Positions 16,268 to 23,671 of a stretch of 23,671 bases of DNA are shown here, one piece after another. The DNA comes from a virus. A program made the translations under genes and the position numbers. The notes beneath the pieces are model-generated. The model was not told the DNA's origin. It worked only from the letters and a program-made list of their open reading frames with translations, and did not search any database. The DNA lies in IMG/VR virus record IMGVR_UViG_3300002144_000875, positions 1 to 23,671 of that record. One strand, written 5' to 3'. Each line of letters opens with the position of its first letter. The stretch's first letter is position 1.

Positions 16268-16708
16268 ATGTGGTTATATAACAATACTAAAATAGAAACC
16301 TTAGAGGATTTACCCTCATATTCTTTTGGTTTTATATATATTACAACTCACCTCCCAACAGGAAAAAAATATTTGGGTAAAAAATCACTTTACCATAATG
16401 TTCGAAAGAAATTAACTAAAAAACAACTTTCAGAACAAAATGGGAGGGGAAGGAAACCAACTACCGAGATAGTTAAAAAAGTTTCTGATTGGAGGACCTA
16501 TTATGGTTCTGAGGAGTTTATTAAACAAAAAATTAAAGAAAATAAGCAAGAAGAATTTACACGAGAAATTATAAAATTTGTTGATAATAAAAAATTACTT
16601 ACGTATTTTGAGTGTAAATATCAATTTATATATAATGTGTTAGAGTCTAATGAATGGTTAAATTCAAACATATTAGGAAAGTTCTATAAAAAAGACTTGG
16701 AATCATAA
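16268..16708 (+). CDS. GIY-YIG-like endonuclease
   Basis: This 146-residue protein shows the layout of a GIY-YIG domain: GFIYI at 21-25 (the 'GIY' strand), then KYLGKK at 34-39 (the 'YIG' strand), an Arg/Lys-rich helix (VRKKLTKKQLS), DWRTYYGS at 74-81, a glutamate in YFECKYQF (E115), and a closing NILGKFYKKDL. The E115 and Asn region is consistent with the metal-binding Glu and conserved Asn of the fold. It could be a free-standing homing-type nuclease or a DNA-processing nuclease of phage replication; no intron is seen around it. It lies two bases after the fiber gene and 24 before the primase gene. Confidence 0.65.
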   Translation: MWLYNNTKIETLEDLPSYSFGFIYITTHLPTGKKYLGKKSLYHNVRKKLTKKQLSEQNGRGRKPTTEIVKKVSDWRTYYGSEEFIKQKIKENKQEEFTREIIKFVDNKKLLTYFECKYQFIYNVLESNEWLNSNILGKFYKKDLES

Positions 16709-18458: not shown

Positions 18459-19211
18459 ATGATAAGCCTAATAAAAATACTAAATGAAATTCAAGGAGGG
18501 TCTAAAGCTATATTTCTAGCTGGACCCGCTGGAAGTGGAAAATCGTATATGAATCGTCTCTTGTTACCACAAGATTTCCAAACTATAAATTCTGATGATA
18601 CTTATGAGGAAATGCTTAAAGCTAGTGGTATTGGGTTAAAACAAAAAGACTTTACCCCCGATGAACTTTCTCAAGCTGCTAAGTTACAAGCTCAAGCTCG
18701 TAAAGACACTCAAGCTAGATTAGAAAAATCAATGGAGGGTAGAAATAACATAATAATTGATGGTACAGGGGCAGCAACCTCTCCAATATTAAAGAAAAAA
18801 CAACAACTAGAAGATTTAGGGTATGAAACATTGATGTTAATGATCTATGTTTCTCCTCTTGTATCCTTAGAACGAAATAAAAATCGTGAAAGAAGTTTAA
18901 TGCCCTCAATTGTATTACGCACATGGAGAGATGTTAATAAAAGTATTGAAACATATAGAAAAGAATTTGCTAACAACTTTATCCTAATTGATAACAACCC
19001 AGAGGACGCTAATAGAGATTTTAATATAGAATTATTACGCCCATATCTTGAGGATTCCAAAGCTAAAGGAAAACCTAAAACGCCCGAACAAAAAGCCAAA
19101 TCAAAACAACAATTTGATGAGTTGATAAGTGATATAACTTCATCCATAAAACAACTTCCTAAATTTGATACTATTGATAGTGCTAAATCAAAAATAAAAC
19201 AATTCATATAA
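18459..19211 (+). CDS. P-loop kinase (zeta-toxin/AAA_33-like) with capsid-type leader
   Basis: This 250-residue protein has a Walker A at residues 22-29 (GPAGSGKS), an INSDDTYEEML segment like the substrate-binding aspartates of zeta toxins and polynucleotide kinases, IIIDGTGA with D101 (Walker B-like), and an Arg-rich lid-like ERNKNRERSL at 138-147. The kinase fold therefore phosphorylates some substrate, which cannot be read from the sequence. The first ten residues, MISLIKILNE, are hydrophobic and end in an L-N-E triad. They match residue for residue in character the MIKLVDLLKE leader of the HAD protein two genes on. The start overlaps no gene; the stop overlaps the next ATG. A Lys-rich linker lies near 204-216. 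Confidence 0.75.
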   Translation: MISLIKILNEIQGGSKAIFLAGPAGSGKSYMNRLLLPQDFQTINSDDTYEEMLKASGIGLKQKDFTPDELSQAAKLQAQARKDTQARLEKSMEGRNNIIIDGTGAATSPILKKKQQLEDLGYETLMLMIYVSPLVSLERNKNRERSLMPSIVLRTWRDVNKSIETYRKEFANNFILIDNNPEDANRDFNIELLRPYLEDSKAKGKPKTPEQKAKSKQQFDELISDITSSIKQLPKFDTIDSAKSKIKQFI

Positions 19212-21322
19212 TGGATAAATTCATCCAAGAACTTATACAACCTTTTTTGGAAGAAGATAATTCTCCCAAAAATATAGCACTCATTCCTGGAGGGTTTAAA
19301 CCCCCAACCTTAGGACATTTTTACACAACTTTAGAAATCGCAAAAAGAGATGAGTTAGATGAGGTAATAGTTTTAATAGGGCATGGAGTAAGAGATGGAA
19401 TTGATAAGGAAAAAAGCCTTAAAATATGGGAAATATATAAAAAATCCCTTCCATCAAAAGTCAACATAAAAATCTCAGAAAAACCATCCCCCGTAGGAGA
19501 TGTTAACTCAATCATTAAAAATAATCCTAATAACTTTTATTTTCCTGTAGTGGGAGTAAGAGGGGAACAAGATTTAGAGGATATAAAAAGATTTGATTCT
19601 TTAAAAGGAAAATATGATAACTTTAAACCTATAATTTTTGATAGTGATTTTAAAGTAAGTGGGACAGGTGCTCGTTTATCATTGATGAATGGGGATTATA
19701 ACGATTTTAAAAACTTTTTACCCTCTGAGGTATCTGAGGACGATAAGTTAAAAATTTGGAGTATTTTAACATCCGATATTTTAAATGAAATCAACTCTGA
19801 CAAGTTAAAAGCCCTAACCCAAAAATTCAAAAATGCTTTTACCTCCCAAAAAGATGATTTTAGAGGGTTTAAATCTCTAGCTTTAAAATATCTCCAAAAA
19901 CAAAATATGACTGATGAGGAAAAAGAAAAGCTTAAAAGAAATTTTAATGACATCCTTAAATCTAGTGGGATAGTAGTAACATTCCCAATACTAGGAGCCT
20001 CAGGTACTACTCTATTGGGGTGGTTAACTAATAAAATATCTAAAGGAAAATTTTCAACACTCCCTTCAAAATTTAAGGATGAGTTATTAAAGAATCAACT
20101 TAATGAAAACTTAACATATTCAGATCATATAGACTATAAACGTCAAATACGTGATTTAACCAAATACATGCTTGATAAAGGTATGAATATTAAACCTTTA
20201 CCTAAAGTTATTTTTAAACATGGAGATAAAGAAAATGCAGGAAACTTTTTAGGAAAAACAGCATACTATAATCCAAATATCAAAGAAATAGTATTGTATA
20301 CTGAAGGAAGACATCCTAAAGATGTAGTTAGAAGTTTTTCACATGAAATGATTCACCATATCCAAAATATAGAAGGAAGATTAGGAGAAATCACAACTCC
20401 AAACACACAAGAAGATGACCATTTAAATAAACTTGAAGAAGAAGCTAATTTAAAAGGTACAATGACCTTTAGAAATTGGACAGATAGTTTATCTTCTTCT
20501 ACTCAACCCAAATCTCTTAAAGAAGAAATTATAGGAGATAAAATACAATGTGATAATTGTGATTGGAGTTGGGACATAAAAGATGGTGGTGATGATCTTT
20601 ATGTATGTCATAAATGTTATCATGATAACACCCCAATCCAAGAAAAAAAATCAAAGGACCCATTTGGAATAAATCAATTTATAAGAGAATTATTTGAGGA
20701 AGATACCCTAATGGAAGGACGCTACGATAAAATATCAAACACTATATCATCAGACATCTTTAAAAAGTGGAAAAGTGATTTTGATAATGGAGAAAGAACT
20801 AAATCTACCTATGAAAATACATATTCAACAGGAGACATAGAAGTAGAGGTGGATGCTTATTTAACTTTTACTCCAAACCTCCCACAAAAATTAGATGTTG
20901 ATGGGGGTGCTGATAATGAAGAAGATTGGATACAAGTACGATTTGAGGTAGACCCAAACAACCTCCCAAAATATTGGAGTAAAGTTTCAATGGGTCTTAA
21001 AGATGTAATTCGTCATGAGATAGAACATTTAACTCAAGGGGAGGGTTCAAACTTAAAACCCAATAAGTTTATTGAGGATGATATTTTGATTAGAAAAATT
21101 ATAAATGCTAAACTTCTCCCAAAATCTCAATATTTTAAATTAGAGAAAGAAGTTGATGCTAATTTACAAGGTATGTATTTTAGAGCCAAAAAAGAGAAAG
21201 TACCATTCAAAGATGTGATAAATACATACTTAAATTCCCAAGATATTACTCCCCAAGAAAAAGAAGAAATACTAGACCTTTGGAGAATTCGATTAAAAGC
21301 ATTAAATTTGCCCTTATTTTAA
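19211..21322 (+). CDS. Multidomain protein: nucleotidyltransferase, two HExxH modules, zinc ribbon
   Basis: This 703-residue protein is built from parts. Residues 1-15 form a leader (MDKFIQELIQPFLEE). Residues about 21-165 look like a nucleotidyltransferase (NMNAT/CTP-transferase type): IPGGFKPPTLGHF, where the usual HxGH is TxGH (T33, H36), and VSGTGAR at 149-155. Residues about 190-300 are helical with a hydrophobic stretch at 254-272. Residues about 300-425 form a metallopeptidase-like module with HEMIH at 378-382. A zinc ribbon uses Cys 447, 450, 466 and 469. Residues about 484-503 repeat a leader-like segment, DPFGINQFIRELFEED, and the rest is a second metallopeptidase-like module with HEIEH at 602-606. 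Several (I/L)-x-E triads fall between modules (LNE193, LNE299, LKE438, LME502). It could be a polyprotein cut on capsid maturation. Confidence 0.75.
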   Translation: MDKFIQELIQPFLEEDNSPKNIALIPGGFKPPTLGHFYTTLEIAKRDELDEVIVLIGHGVRDGIDKEKSLKIWEIYKKSLPSKVNIKISEKPSPVGDVNSIIKNNPNNFYFPVVGVRGEQDLEDIKRFDSLKGKYDNFKPIIFDSDFKVSGTGARLSLMNGDYNDFKNFLPSEVSEDDKLKIWSILTSDILNEINSDKLKALTQKFKNAFTSQKDDFRGFKSLALKYLQKQNMTDEEKEKLKRNFNDILKSSGIVVTFPILGASGTTLLGWLTNKISKGKFSTLPSKFKDELLKNQLNENLTYSDHIDYKRQIRDLTKYMLDKGMNIKPLPKVIFKHGDKENAGNFLGKTAYYNPNIKEIVLYTEGRHPKDVVRSFSHEMIHHIQNIEGRLGEITTPNTQEDDHLNKLEEEANLKGTMTFRNWTDSLSSSTQPKSLKEEIIGDKIQCDNCDWSWDIKDGGDDLYVCHKCYHDNTPIQEKKSKDPFGINQFIRELFEEDTLMEGRYDKISNTISSDIFKKWKSDFDNGERTKSTYENTYSTGDIEVEVDAYLTFTPNLPQKLDVDGGADNEEDWIQVRFEVDPNNLPKYWSKVSMGLKDVIRHEIEHLTQGEGSNLKPNKFIEDDILIRKIINAKLLPKSQYFKLEKEVDANLQGMYFRAKKEKVPFKDVINTYLNSQDITPQEKEEILDLWRIRLKALNLPLF

Positions 21323-21326
21323 TATT

Positions 21327-21893
21327 ATGATAAAACTAGTTGATTTACTTAAAGAATTTCAAGATTCACAATATACAATATTTTGTGATTTGGATGGGGT
21401 ATTAGTTGACTTTGATAAGGGATATGAGGAATTAACAGGAATAGCTACTTACCACGCTGACAGACAAGGTAGTGAACACTTTTGGGACCTATTTAGAAAT
21501 AGTTTAACCGAAAAGGGTATATCCGAAAAACAATATTGGGAGGAGTTAGAATGGATGCCTGACGGTAAACAACTATGGGACTATATTTCACCATACAATC
21601 CATACATTTTAACAGCACCATCAGTTAACCATGATTTACCTGCTGATGTTAAATACAAATTATCCCATAATGAATCTCAACAAGGTAAAACCGAGTGGGT
21701 TAAACGTTTAGATAATATGAGAGAATTAAAATTTAAAGCATCTAAATTCAAACAAGATTTATCTAAAAAAGGTAGAATCCTAATAGATGATAGAAAGCCA
21801 ACTATAGATGGTTGGAACTCAAAAGGGGGTATAGGAATACTTCACACAAGTGCTGCTGACACTATTAAACAGTTACAAAAATTAGGGATATGA
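21327..21893 (+). CDS. HAD-family phosphatase (5'(3')-nucleotidase-like) with leader
   Basis: This 188-residue protein has the HAD motif I CDLDGVLVDFD (nucleophile D21, acid D23), a motif II-like ILTAPS with T96, a possible motif III lysine near GKTEWVK (K121), and motif IV ILIDDRKPTIDGW with D154 and D155. The closing GGIGILH is typical of the cytosolic 5'(3')-deoxyribonucleotidase-like group. It likely dephosphorylates a nucleotide or similar small molecule. The first ten residues, MIKLVDLLKE, are a hydrophobic leader ending in L-K-E, matching the P-loop kinase gene's leader. The gene overlaps the next by four bases (ATGA). Confidence 0.8.
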   Translation: MIKLVDLLKEFQDSQYTIFCDLDGVLVDFDKGYEELTGIATYHADRQGSEHFWDLFRNSLTEKGISEKQYWEELEWMPDGKQLWDYISPYNPYILTAPSVNHDLPADVKYKLSHNESQQGKTEWVKRLDNMRELKFKASKFKQDLSKKGRILIDDRKPTIDGWNSKGGIGILHTSAADTIKQLQKLGI

Positions 21894-22468
21894 GCGATAA
21901 TGTTTTAAAAAGAGATTTCCAAAAAAGAGATGTAGAACGTTTACGTAATTTAGTTAAAGGTAAATACGGGGACAAAACTACTCAAGGTATAGGATATAAT
22001 GGTGAATCACAAGTAGATCATAAAGAAGGAGATACTTGGGAACAAAATGGTAAAACTTGGACCATAAGAGATGGTATAAAAGAAAATATAACAAAGTTAG
22101 ATAAGTTTAAAAAAGTATCTGTTCCTATATTTTGCCCCAACTGTAAAACCGTAATGGATAAACAATTAGATCCATTTTACTATAAGGCGTTTGGTGAGTG
22201 TTTAGATTGTAGATCTAAAACAGAAACCCGATTAAAAATTAGTGGGGAGTGGGAAGATCATATAAATGAAGTCCATAACCAAGAAATTGATCACCATATA
22301 GAGGAATTTAAAACATTCATGCAAGATGCTCTTAATGAAAGTAATAATGGCTATATTACAGAAGCAGGTGATATTCAGAAATGGGTGGGGGGTATAGATA
22401 AAGAAAGAGCAAATAAATCCCTAGAGGAGGGTATAAAATACATGGAAGGTTTGAAGAAACAAAAATAG
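21890..22468 (+). CDS. Zinc-ribbon protein, 192 residues
   Basis: A zinc ribbon is formed by Cys 82, 85, 104 and 107 (FCPNCKTVMD...GECLDCRSK). The N-terminal part (RLRNLVKGKYGDKTTQGIGY, then EGDTWEQNGKTWTIRDG) is conserved-looking but not recognised. The C-terminal third holds a His/Glu-rich helical stretch and two (I/L)-x-E triads, LNE150 followed by S and ITE158 followed by A. Unlike its neighbours it has no such triad in the first 15 residues. It is probably a nucleic-acid or protein-binding accessory; no catalytic motif is seen. The start overlaps the HAD gene (ATGA). Confidence 0.65.
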   Translation: MSDNVLKRDFQKRDVERLRNLVKGKYGDKTTQGIGYNGESQVDHKEGDTWEQNGKTWTIRDGIKENITKLDKFKKVSVPIFCPNCKTVMDKQLDPFYYKAFGECLDCRSKTETRLKISGEWEDHINEVHNQEIDHHIEEFKTFMQDALNESNNGYITEAGDIQKWVGGIDKERANKSLEEGIKYMEGLKKQK

Positions 22469-22496: not shown

Positions 22497-23027
22497 ATGA
22501 AAGACAATTTCGATTTAAAAAAATACCTAAAAGAAAATAAAGTAGTGGAAAATTATAATCCATTTACATCTTCTAAAAAACCAAATACCTTAAATGAAGG
22601 TAATCTTCGTGATAAAGTTAAAGAAATGATTTTAAAAGAATTAGAAGATTATCAAGATTATGATGAAGAAGGTGTTGACATGGGAATGGAAAATCCTGAG
22701 GACATGTTTGATGATGTCATGGATTTAGGGGATACTGAAGAGGAGTCTGATCTATTTGATGATGAATTGGACCTTTTTGAAGCCGAAGAGGATGAAGAAG
22801 AAGAAACCGAAGAAGAAGAAACCGAAGAAGAACCAGAAATTCCTGCTGATGATGATAGTGAATTAGAGGCTATCGGAGGAAAAATGGAAGGGGATGATAG
22901 TGAAATAATGAATGCCCTCATGACATCTTTAAAACTATCTAAAGCAAGTGGAAATGAAAAGCTTACTACTCAAATATCAAACACTATCAAATTCTTTGTT
23001 AGTGACTTTATTGGAGGAGAAGAATAA
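22497..23027 (+). CDS. Highly acidic protein, possible prohead core/internal protein
   Basis: This 176-residue protein starts with a basic-hydrophobic segment (MKDNFDLKKYLKENKVVENY), a TLNEG site at 31-35, and an amphipathic helix DKVKEMILKELEDY. Residues about 54-122 are almost all Glu/Asp with a Glu/Thr repeat. A folded-looking C-terminal helical domain (MNALMTSLKLSKA, TTQISNTIKFFVSDFIGGEE) follows. Such very acidic, Lys-poor cores resemble T4 gp67/gp68-type prohead core proteins in style, though I see no sequence match. The ATATTTATAAC motif lies just upstream. The L-x-E|G site would remove 34 residues. Other options are an internal DNA-condensing counter-ion protein or a DNA mimic. Confidence 0.65.
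   Translation: MKDNFDLKKYLKENKVVENYNPFTSSKKPNTLNEGNLRDKVKEMILKELEDYQDYDEEGVDMGMENPEDMFDDVMDLGDTEEESDLFDDELDLFEAEEDEEEETEEEETEEEPEIPADDDSELEAIGGKMEGDDSEIMNALMTSLKLSKASGNEKLTTQISNTIKFFVSDFIGGEE
22794..22835 (+). repeat. 15-base Glu/Thr tandem repeat in the acidic gene
   Basis: The unit GAAGAAGAAGAAACC occurs twice in tandem (22794-22808 and 22809-22823), followed by a partial third copy. It encodes EEEET units in the acidic protein and keeps the frame, so unit number could vary between relatives by slippage. Confidence 0.85.
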
Positions 23028-23058: not shown

Positions 23059-23226
23059 ATGACAAAATTAGAAATTTTAGAAAATCTTGGATCTCAAGTA
23101 GATCTTTTATTAACAGAGGATGCAAAATCTTCAAAAGCAGCAGCTGGGCGAGCACGCCGAGCAGCTAACGAAATTAAAAAGTTAGCAGCTGAGTACAAAA
23201 AAGTATCTTTAGCTGAAAGTAAGTAA
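23059..23226 (+). CDS. Small Hc1-like histone H1 family protein
   Basis: The protein is only 55 residues: MTKLEILENLGSQVDLLLTE, then DAKSSKAAAGRARRAANEIK and KLAAEYKKVSLAESK. The basic, Ala-rich stretch at 23-50 (KSSKAAAGRARRAANEIKKL) strongly resembles the core of the Hc1-like proteins common in Bacteroidota ('KAAGTRARKAMQELKKLAQE'), which bind DNA non-specifically. The acidic N-terminal 20 residues contain ILE at 6-8 and LTE at 18-20, so a T4-type prohead protease could release the basic part. A role in condensing DNA in the head, or on entry into the host, is inferred. It lies 32 bases after the acidic gene and three before the next start. Confidence 0.8.
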   Translation: MTKLEILENLGSQVDLLLTEDAKSSKAAAGRARRAANEIKKLAAEYKKVSLAESK

Positions 23227-23229
23227 GTA

Positions 23230-23671
23230 ATGGGAAAAATTAACGAGGCATTTAATTCAGAGGAATCAAAAAAGATTTATGATAATTTTTTAGCTATCGT
23301 TACTGACTCAAAACGTAGAGACAAACTTGTAAAGAAACACGGCAGTAACGCAGAGGCAGTAGCTTATGGTGCTGCCGTGAATCAAGTTAAAAAACAATCA
23401 TCTAAAGAACCTAAAGAAGAGGATAAAATGGATAAAACAGAAAAGCTAAAAGAAATGGTTAAGGATGCTTTAATGAATCCTAAAAAAGCTGACTTGAATA
23501 AAGATGGAGAACTTTCCCCATACGAAAAAAAACGTGGTGCGGCTATTGAAAAAAATATAGCTGAATCCACTTCAAAACATACAGTTAAATATTCAAAATC
23601 AAATGACACATATCAAGTATGGTTAGCGGATGAGATAGTAACTGATTTTGCTACTAAAGAAAAAGCAGATG
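23230..23671 (+). CDS. EF-hand-bearing protein, 5' part
   Basis: The frame is open to the window end, so the C terminus is missing; 147 residues are visible. It begins MGKINEAFNSEESKKIYDNF, where I-N-E|A at 4-7 looks like a short T4-type leader site (compare T4 Alt). A helical, Lys-rich part (RDKLVKKHGSNAEAVAYGAA) follows. Residues 88-99 are a canonical EF-hand loop, DLNKDGELSPYE: D1, N3, D5, G6, L8 and E12 are all in place. The block continues KKRGAAIEKN with an IAE|S triad at 110-112, and then a short beta-rich repeat (HTVKYSKSNDTYQVWLADEI). The protein may bind calcium; its function is not recognised. It starts three bases after the histone-like gene. Confidence 0.75.
   Translation, partial: MGKINEAFNSEESKKIYDNFLAIVTDSKRRDKLVKKHGSNAEAVAYGAAVNQVKKQSSKEPKEEDKMDKTEKLKEMVKDALMNPKKADLNKDGELSPYEKKRGAAIEKNIAESTSKHTVKYSKSNDTYQVWLADEIVTDFATKEKAD

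Follow-up and report, generated by a model that had tools for sequence, protein, structure and literature searches.

The locus considered here raises the question of what kind of product is made from a single reading frame in which several distinct protein modules are joined end to end. The window, the whole stretch of DNA analysed, comprises the 23,671 nucleotides of the IMG/VR virus record IMGVR_UViG_3300002144_000875, and its source is probably a T4-like phage of a Bacteroidota host. The frame at positions 19211-21322 of the plus strand begins with ATG, is open and complete with no internal stops, and encodes a chain of 703 residues. A first-pass annotation, made from the letters of the sequence, had read it as several capsid-targeted proteins fused together, each with its own targeting and cleavage unit. 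The frame and all the motifs that it named are indeed in place: a TLGH motif, a hydrophobic helical segment, HEMIH (H378), a CxxC...CxxC zinc ribbon and HEIEH, together with the segment DPFGINQFIRELFEED and the triads LNE191-193, LNE297-299, LKE436-438 and LME500-502. Judging from sequence comparisons, we consider it probable that the gene encodes a capsid-targeted cargo polyprotein of a T4-like phage, which would be cut by a gp21-type prohead protease into modules that are borne in the head and injected. The chain was parsed as follows, an arrow marking each predicted cut:

19211..19255, plus strand: N-terminal leader MDKFIQELIQPFLEE, residues 1-15, capsid-targeting-like, ending in FLE/LEE
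19256..19789, plus strand: NadD/CoaD-like nucleotidyltransferase module, residues 16-193, ending in LNE193 (PHROG 3041, Foldseek)
19781..19789, plus strand: predicted prohead-protease site LNE193↓I (pLDDT<50 at 191-195; junction statistics)
19790..20107, plus strand: hydrophobic four-helix module, residues 194-299, ending in LNE299 (copy in relatives L003/L005)
20099..20107, plus strand: predicted site LNE299↓N (pLDDT<50 at 279-306; LNE↓N(ASYS) seen at HEMIH starts of relatives)
20108..20524, plus strand: HEMIH zincin-like module, residues 300-438, ending in LKE438 (HExxH conservation)
20516..20524, plus strand: predicted site LKE438↓E (pLDDT<50 at 430-441; LNE↓A/E(IVGDKI) seen at zinc-ribbon starts of relatives)
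20525..20644, plus strand: zinc ribbon module, residues 439-478, ending in IQE478 (CxxC..CxxC, alignment)
20645..20716, plus strand: mobile leader-like DPFG element, residues 479-502, bounded by IQE478, LFE496 and LME502 ([LIVM]xE flanks)
20708..20716, plus strand: predicted site LME502↓G (directly after disordered 476-500; [LIM]xE at the same offset in relatives)
20717..21319, plus strand: HEIEH zincin-like module, residues 503-703 (HE.EH conservation, [LIM]xE at its start)

The first module could be assigned by several lines of evidence: it matches PHROG 3041 (E=5.9e-8), combines a Rossmann-like fold with the T/HxGH motif (as TLGH) typical of the NadD/CoaD-like class, and recovers NadD/CoaD structures in Foldseek searches (E 2e-5 to 1e-3, probability 1.0), while CTP_transf_like was detected in 17 of 56 aligned relatives. 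Modules 2-5 drew no name above the cut-off in Pfam, NCBIfam or PHROGs. Their motifs are nevertheless strongly conserved among the matches listed, with HExxH in 175/175 family copies of the HEMIH module, CxxC..CxxC in 88/89 copies of the zinc ribbon and HE.EH in 92/92 copies of the HEIEH module. The HEMIH module gave weak Pfam matches to M91, MPTase-PolyVal and DUF6647. A Foldseek search of the segment from the HEMIH to the HEIEH module returned no match in the PDB, and the structural neighbours of both HExxH modules (3 and 5) were IrrE-like viral models only. The four-helix module recurs at another place in the chain, with 58% identity, in L003/L005. A LETM1-like identity, the source of our working label LETM for this module, was considered and dropped, no library backing LETM1.

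The modules behave as independent units in the predicted structure. An AlphaFold2 run on the chain with a 56-row alignment yielded well-folded separate beads (mean pLDDT 80) whose mutual placement is poorly defined (pTM 0.39), and not the single compact fold across the boundaries that would have spoken against a polyprotein. The stretches with pLDDT below 50 are residues 191-195, 279-306, 430-441 and 476-500, the first three corresponding to LNE193, LNE299 and LKE438 and the last ending just before LME502, such that disorder lies at or beside all four boundaries; the others are residues 11-16 of the leader, following its helix, and a loop at 255-267 in the helical module.

The same independence is apparent in the relatives. 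The sole isolated relative that spans the whole chain is gp088 of the Flavobacterium phage immuto (907 residues, 40% identity over 89%), which is annotated as an NMN adenylyltransferase and sits between the tail and the terminase/head genes. IMG/VR yielded 8 relatives of the whole chain and 5 matches to the helical module, and for the other single modules the best 80 at most per scan were taken, out of 270 (zinc ribbon), 547 (HEMIH) and 331 (HEIEH) confirmed matches. Module strings were read with one profile per module (NT, nucleotidyltransferase; HEM, HEMIH; ZN, zinc ribbon; HEI, HEIEH), from overlap-resolved architectures, the LETM profile being contaminated and also matching part of the HEIEH module. 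Among the matches listed, 183 non-redundant multi-module chains displayed at least 36 distinct strings, some of them cut by contig ends; examples are NT-HEM-HEI, NT-HEI-LETM-ZN-HEM and HAD-HEI-HEM-LETM-ZN. The usual order is NT-HEM-(ZN)-HEI, with reversals among the matches listed that place HEI before HEM in 5 cases, ZN before HEM in 28 and HAD before HEM in 2. Module order is thus shuffled among relatives and is not a trait of the family. Shorter proteins, too, carry zinc ribbon and HEIEH modules close to their N terminus.

Between the named modules lie extra cassettes: ART-like, ParB-like, a second HAD, a Pol-beta-like nucleotidyltransferase and a PHROG 455 module, the first four being named from motifs, with no library match above the cut-off. 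Short Y-H-x-T/S cassettes, a pattern found in ADP-ribosyltransferase-like folds, stand beside LxE sites in L116, L135, L073 and L093. The PHROG 455 cassette occupies residues 741-1138 of L073 and 1071-1422 of L064, and hundreds of T4-like cyanophages, as well as HTVC008M, carry the gene for the corresponding protein on its own. In T4-like phages of Pelagibacter, Methylophilales and cyanobacteria, other cassettes stand as genes of their own. Smaller fusions were also recovered: S-PM2d138 joins PHROG 455 to a cytidylyltransferase in a two-module protein, and in gp159 of the Sinorhizobium phage phiM12 a nucleotidyltransferase is fused to the Melnitz-31 cassette, which at the level of sequence shows that cassettes travel in other phages.

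The genes around the chain offer a direct view of fusion and fission:

18459..19211, plus strand: P-loop (polynucleotide-kinase/zeta-like) gene with leader MISLIKILNE↓I (Zeta_toxin 2.1e-10, AAA_33 1.3e-9)
21327..21893, plus strand: 5'-nucleotidase-like (HAD) gene with leader MIKLVDLLKE↓F (PHROG 2643, E=6.2e-25)
22497..23027, plus strand: acidic protein with leader MKDNFDLKKYLKE↓N and a second site LNE↓G, the leader being of the type seen in immuto gp076/gp077

In most relatives the kinase and the HAD protein are encoded separately, each behind a leader of its own; in others they are fused into the chain, the kinase as KIN-NT in L022, L110 and L115 and the HAD domain in about 60 relatives among the matches listed. 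The first-pass annotation had suggested looking for modules as separate genes in related phages, and these two answer to it, along with the shorter zinc ribbon and HEIEH proteins and the stand-alone cassettes described above. The acidic protein is perhaps a core or scaffold-type protein. Elsewhere in the window, the gene at 16268-16708 (plus strand) encodes a SegE-like GIY-YIG endonuclease (PF19835, E=3.9e-24), for whose family the name 'NAD synthetase' in PHROG and in the immuto record looks mislabelled. The gene at 21890-22468 (plus strand) encodes a 192-residue protein with two CxxC pairs and no family match, which resembles immuto gp086 at the same place. The small ORFs within 23060-23671, MTKLEILENLGSQVDLLLTEDAK... 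and MGKINEAFNSEESKK..., have leader-like starts and probably encode further head or core proteins.

If the modules are to be released from one chain, the linkers between them should carry a recognizable signal, and the first-pass annotation had pointed to triads between the modules. These triads are present as named, but they are not convincing in the window chain alone, which contains 9 LxE triads as against 4.9±2.0 in shuffles, about 2 standard deviations above chance, with some of them (LDE49, LGE391, LEE408) inside folded domains. Being so near chance, the triads of one chain are suggestive and not significant; significance comes from the family. There, among the matches listed, LNE was found once among 73,672 interior positions, compared with 204 times among 34,530 positions in linkers, and [LIM]xE was present in 397 of 421 linkers and absent from 24. 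The internal starts of individual modules give a concordant picture, [LIM]xE lying near 142/169 HEMIH, 67/83 zinc ribbon, 88/91 HEIEH and 52/61 HAD starts among the matches listed; for these four best-sampled modules it occurs at 81-97% of internal starts as against 11% of random interior windows, although the junctions of one module share descent, so that the counts are in part dependent on one another. In 86 of 91 internal HEIEH copies among the matches listed, the triad at the module start occupies a single offset, and its middle position varies freely (LNE, MAE, LTE, INE, LKE); because the tally of triads preceding GRYD was built on the pattern [LIMV]xE, it shows only this freedom of the middle residue, not the frequency of the site. 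These junction statistics strongly support the proposal that the linkers contain predicted cleavage units.

The targeting part of the earlier reading fared less uniformly. The N-terminal leader of the window chain ends in (L/I)xE, as do those of gp21-processed T4-type internal proteins, and it aligns with the leaders of relatives, MNSLVKSLIQPLLE↓A. In T4 IPIII, targeting and cutting reside in a leader of 10 residues, in which positions 8 and 10 determine cutting (PMC9026906), a spacing equal to that of LxE. The DPFG piece is flanked on both sides in the window chain, by IQE476-478 and LFE494-496, and across 83 distinct DPFG contexts [LIVM]xE was found upstream in 71 and downstream in 81, versus 21 and 56 in shuffles. 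This element is present in about half of the chains and precedes only some modules. One N-terminal leader and a mobile DPFG element can therefore be recognized, but not a targeting unit for every module.

Since the window ends before the head genes, the evidence on the protease and the capsid protein is drawn from immuto and other relatives. The N-terminal region of the immuto gp23-like capsid protein contains LFE↓G, GLLE↓G, LLE↓NQ... and VSE↓, and its gp21-like protease has LLTE↓S near the N terminus and SLNE↓G near the C terminus. The motifs LLE↓S, GLLE↓G and LLE↓NQ recur in the capsid proteins of relatives, and the N- and C-terminal sites in most of their proteases. A gp23-like capsid protein was found in 27, and a gp21-like protease in 29, of the 43 long contigs that carry the chain or one module, all of them partial records, so that absence is uninformative. 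Of the 21 immuto proteins encoded in the head/cargo region, 17 have an N-terminal [LIVM]xE, compared with 63 of the 192 others (Fisher p=2.5e-5). In these phages, one predicted [L/I/M]xE code thus recurs at the junctions, at the capsid protein N-termini and at either end of the protease.

Data from cyanophage virions bear on whether such proteins reach the head. In S-CREM2 the cytidylyltransferase gp154 and the hypothetical protein gp156 were detected in virions by mass spectrometry, with co-purification named by the authors as a possible source of detected proteins (PMC10665884), and the S-SM1 virion contains a putative cytidylyltransferase, T4-GC190 (PMC3037559). S-CREM2 gp154 starts with MKNFSSFLTE↓AD and matches PHROG 3041 with 1.7e-45 (window chain 5.9e-8); it had no direct pairwise match to the chains, the link being through the PHROG 3041 profile only. 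S-CREM2 gp156 has a homologue (E=2e-30) among the internal cassettes of the L029 chain; this cassette, at L029:3003-5693, displays the Pol-beta-like nucleotidyltransferase pattern GSxxN...SDxDLHLV.

The main rival explanation starts from the polyvalent proteins (Iyer et al. 2017) and takes the product to be a multi-domain chain that is packaged or injected and cut by its own zincins ahead of, during or after its stay in the head; the LxE triads would then be incidental. It is favoured by the presence of two modules with HExxH, by a weak MPTase-PolyVal match in one relative and by the zincin processing proposed for polyvalent proteins (PMC5512222). However, it leaves unexplained why the same code is shared by the capsid protein, the protease and the stand-alone leaders, all of which lack zincins, and some chains without a HEIEH module keep the same junctions. 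We regard it as unlikely. No PolyVal-specific Pfam domain was found above the cut-off, the best being PF18818 at 18.0 versus 27.5 bits, in a relative only and none in the window chain, and the chain is accordingly not placed in the MPTase-PolyVal class.

Less probable still is a single multifunctional cytoplasmic enzyme with flexible linkers that are merely rich in L, N and E. Such an enzyme would fit the frequent fusion of related activities and the near-chance excess of LxE in the window chain. Against this, 99 non-redundant linkers contain LNE 65 times versus 6.7±2.5 in shuffles of linker composition (at most 15 in any of 500 shuffles), whereas ENL, the reverse triad, occurs 7 times versus 6.5; the junction signal is hence directional and not a matter of composition. 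The free module order, the leaders and the virion-detected homologues likewise disfavour this explanation. That internal translation starts also make the modules separately, with the fusion as a by-product, could be argued from Met501 at the last junction of the window chain, but this alternative was tested and judged very improbable, since LME is rare at that place in relatives, where LNE, MAE, LTE, INE and LKE dominate, and other junctions lack a conserved Met.

We return to the cargo polyprotein, which draws on the shuffling of the modules, the junction code and its recurrence in capsid protein and protease, the separate AlphaFold2 beads and the virion-detected homologues. In its proposed course, the amphipathic N-terminal leader, and perhaps the internal DPFG element too, would bring the chain into the prohead core, and the gp21-type protease would cut after Glu at [L/I/M]xE between the independently folded modules; the leader itself suggests the first of these steps and the junction code the second. 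The predicted products are a NadD/CoaD-like nucleotidyltransferase of ~20 kDa, a hydrophobic helical protein of ~12 kDa, a HEMIH zincin of ~16 kDa, a zinc ribbon/DPFG piece of ~8 kDa and a HEIEH zincin of ~23 kDa. By analogy, these pieces would remain in the head and be delivered to the host along with the DNA, where they would probably act in early host take-over or counter-defence.

Comparisons with known systems bring out what is shared and what is distinctive. Like the polyvalent proteins (PMC5512222), in which many disparate enzymatic domains per phage chain are freely recombined, zincin-like modules are prominent and injection is predicted, the chains of this family combine at least two domains of disparate activity in varied architectures. 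Processing of polyvalent proteins is, however, ascribed to zincins or to a C-terminal assemblin-like peptidase, whereas the junctions here carry a prohead-protease code; the best reading is that the chain is in kind a polyvalent protein whose processing may have been handed to the T4-type head protease. With the gp21-cut T4 proteins IPI-III and Alt it shares a short N-terminal leader ending in (L/I)xE and, presumptively, a gp21-type protease and head-borne cargo, but T4 encodes one protein per gene with terminal propeptides, in contrast to several folded modules with internal sites. In the ejection proteins of phiKZ and SPN3US a gp21 homologue cuts head proteins after Glu at maturation, at several sites per chain (PMC5694885, PMC10052503), yet propeptides are removed there from single proteins, unlike the multi-cargo chain; the identified cleavages by SPN3US gp245 all give N-terminal propeptides, self-cleavage excepted (PMC5694885, PMC10052503). 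The virion cytidylyltransferases of cyanophages, of which gp154 shares its PHROG with module 1 as well as an LxE leader, are mostly single enzymes and not cassette strings. A literature search, with subscription journals mostly outside its scope, found no description of phage cargo polyproteins parsed by a head-maturation protease.

The arrangement would constitute a new way of loading a virus head with injected enzymes. We give even weight for and against the broader proposal that it is a general platform in a large group of T4-like phages, in which injected enzymes would be held as interchangeable in-frame cassettes bounded by prohead-protease sites, with the DPFG element as a re-usable core-docking unit, new cargo being gained with each inserted module and parsed at head maturation. 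If true, the [L/I/M]xE code would allow head cargo and its cut sites to be read from sequence alone in many uncultured marine and freshwater phages, and would provide a catalogue of injected early-acting enzymes with functions yet to be assigned, as well as a natural blueprint for packing multiple proteins into T4-type capsids.
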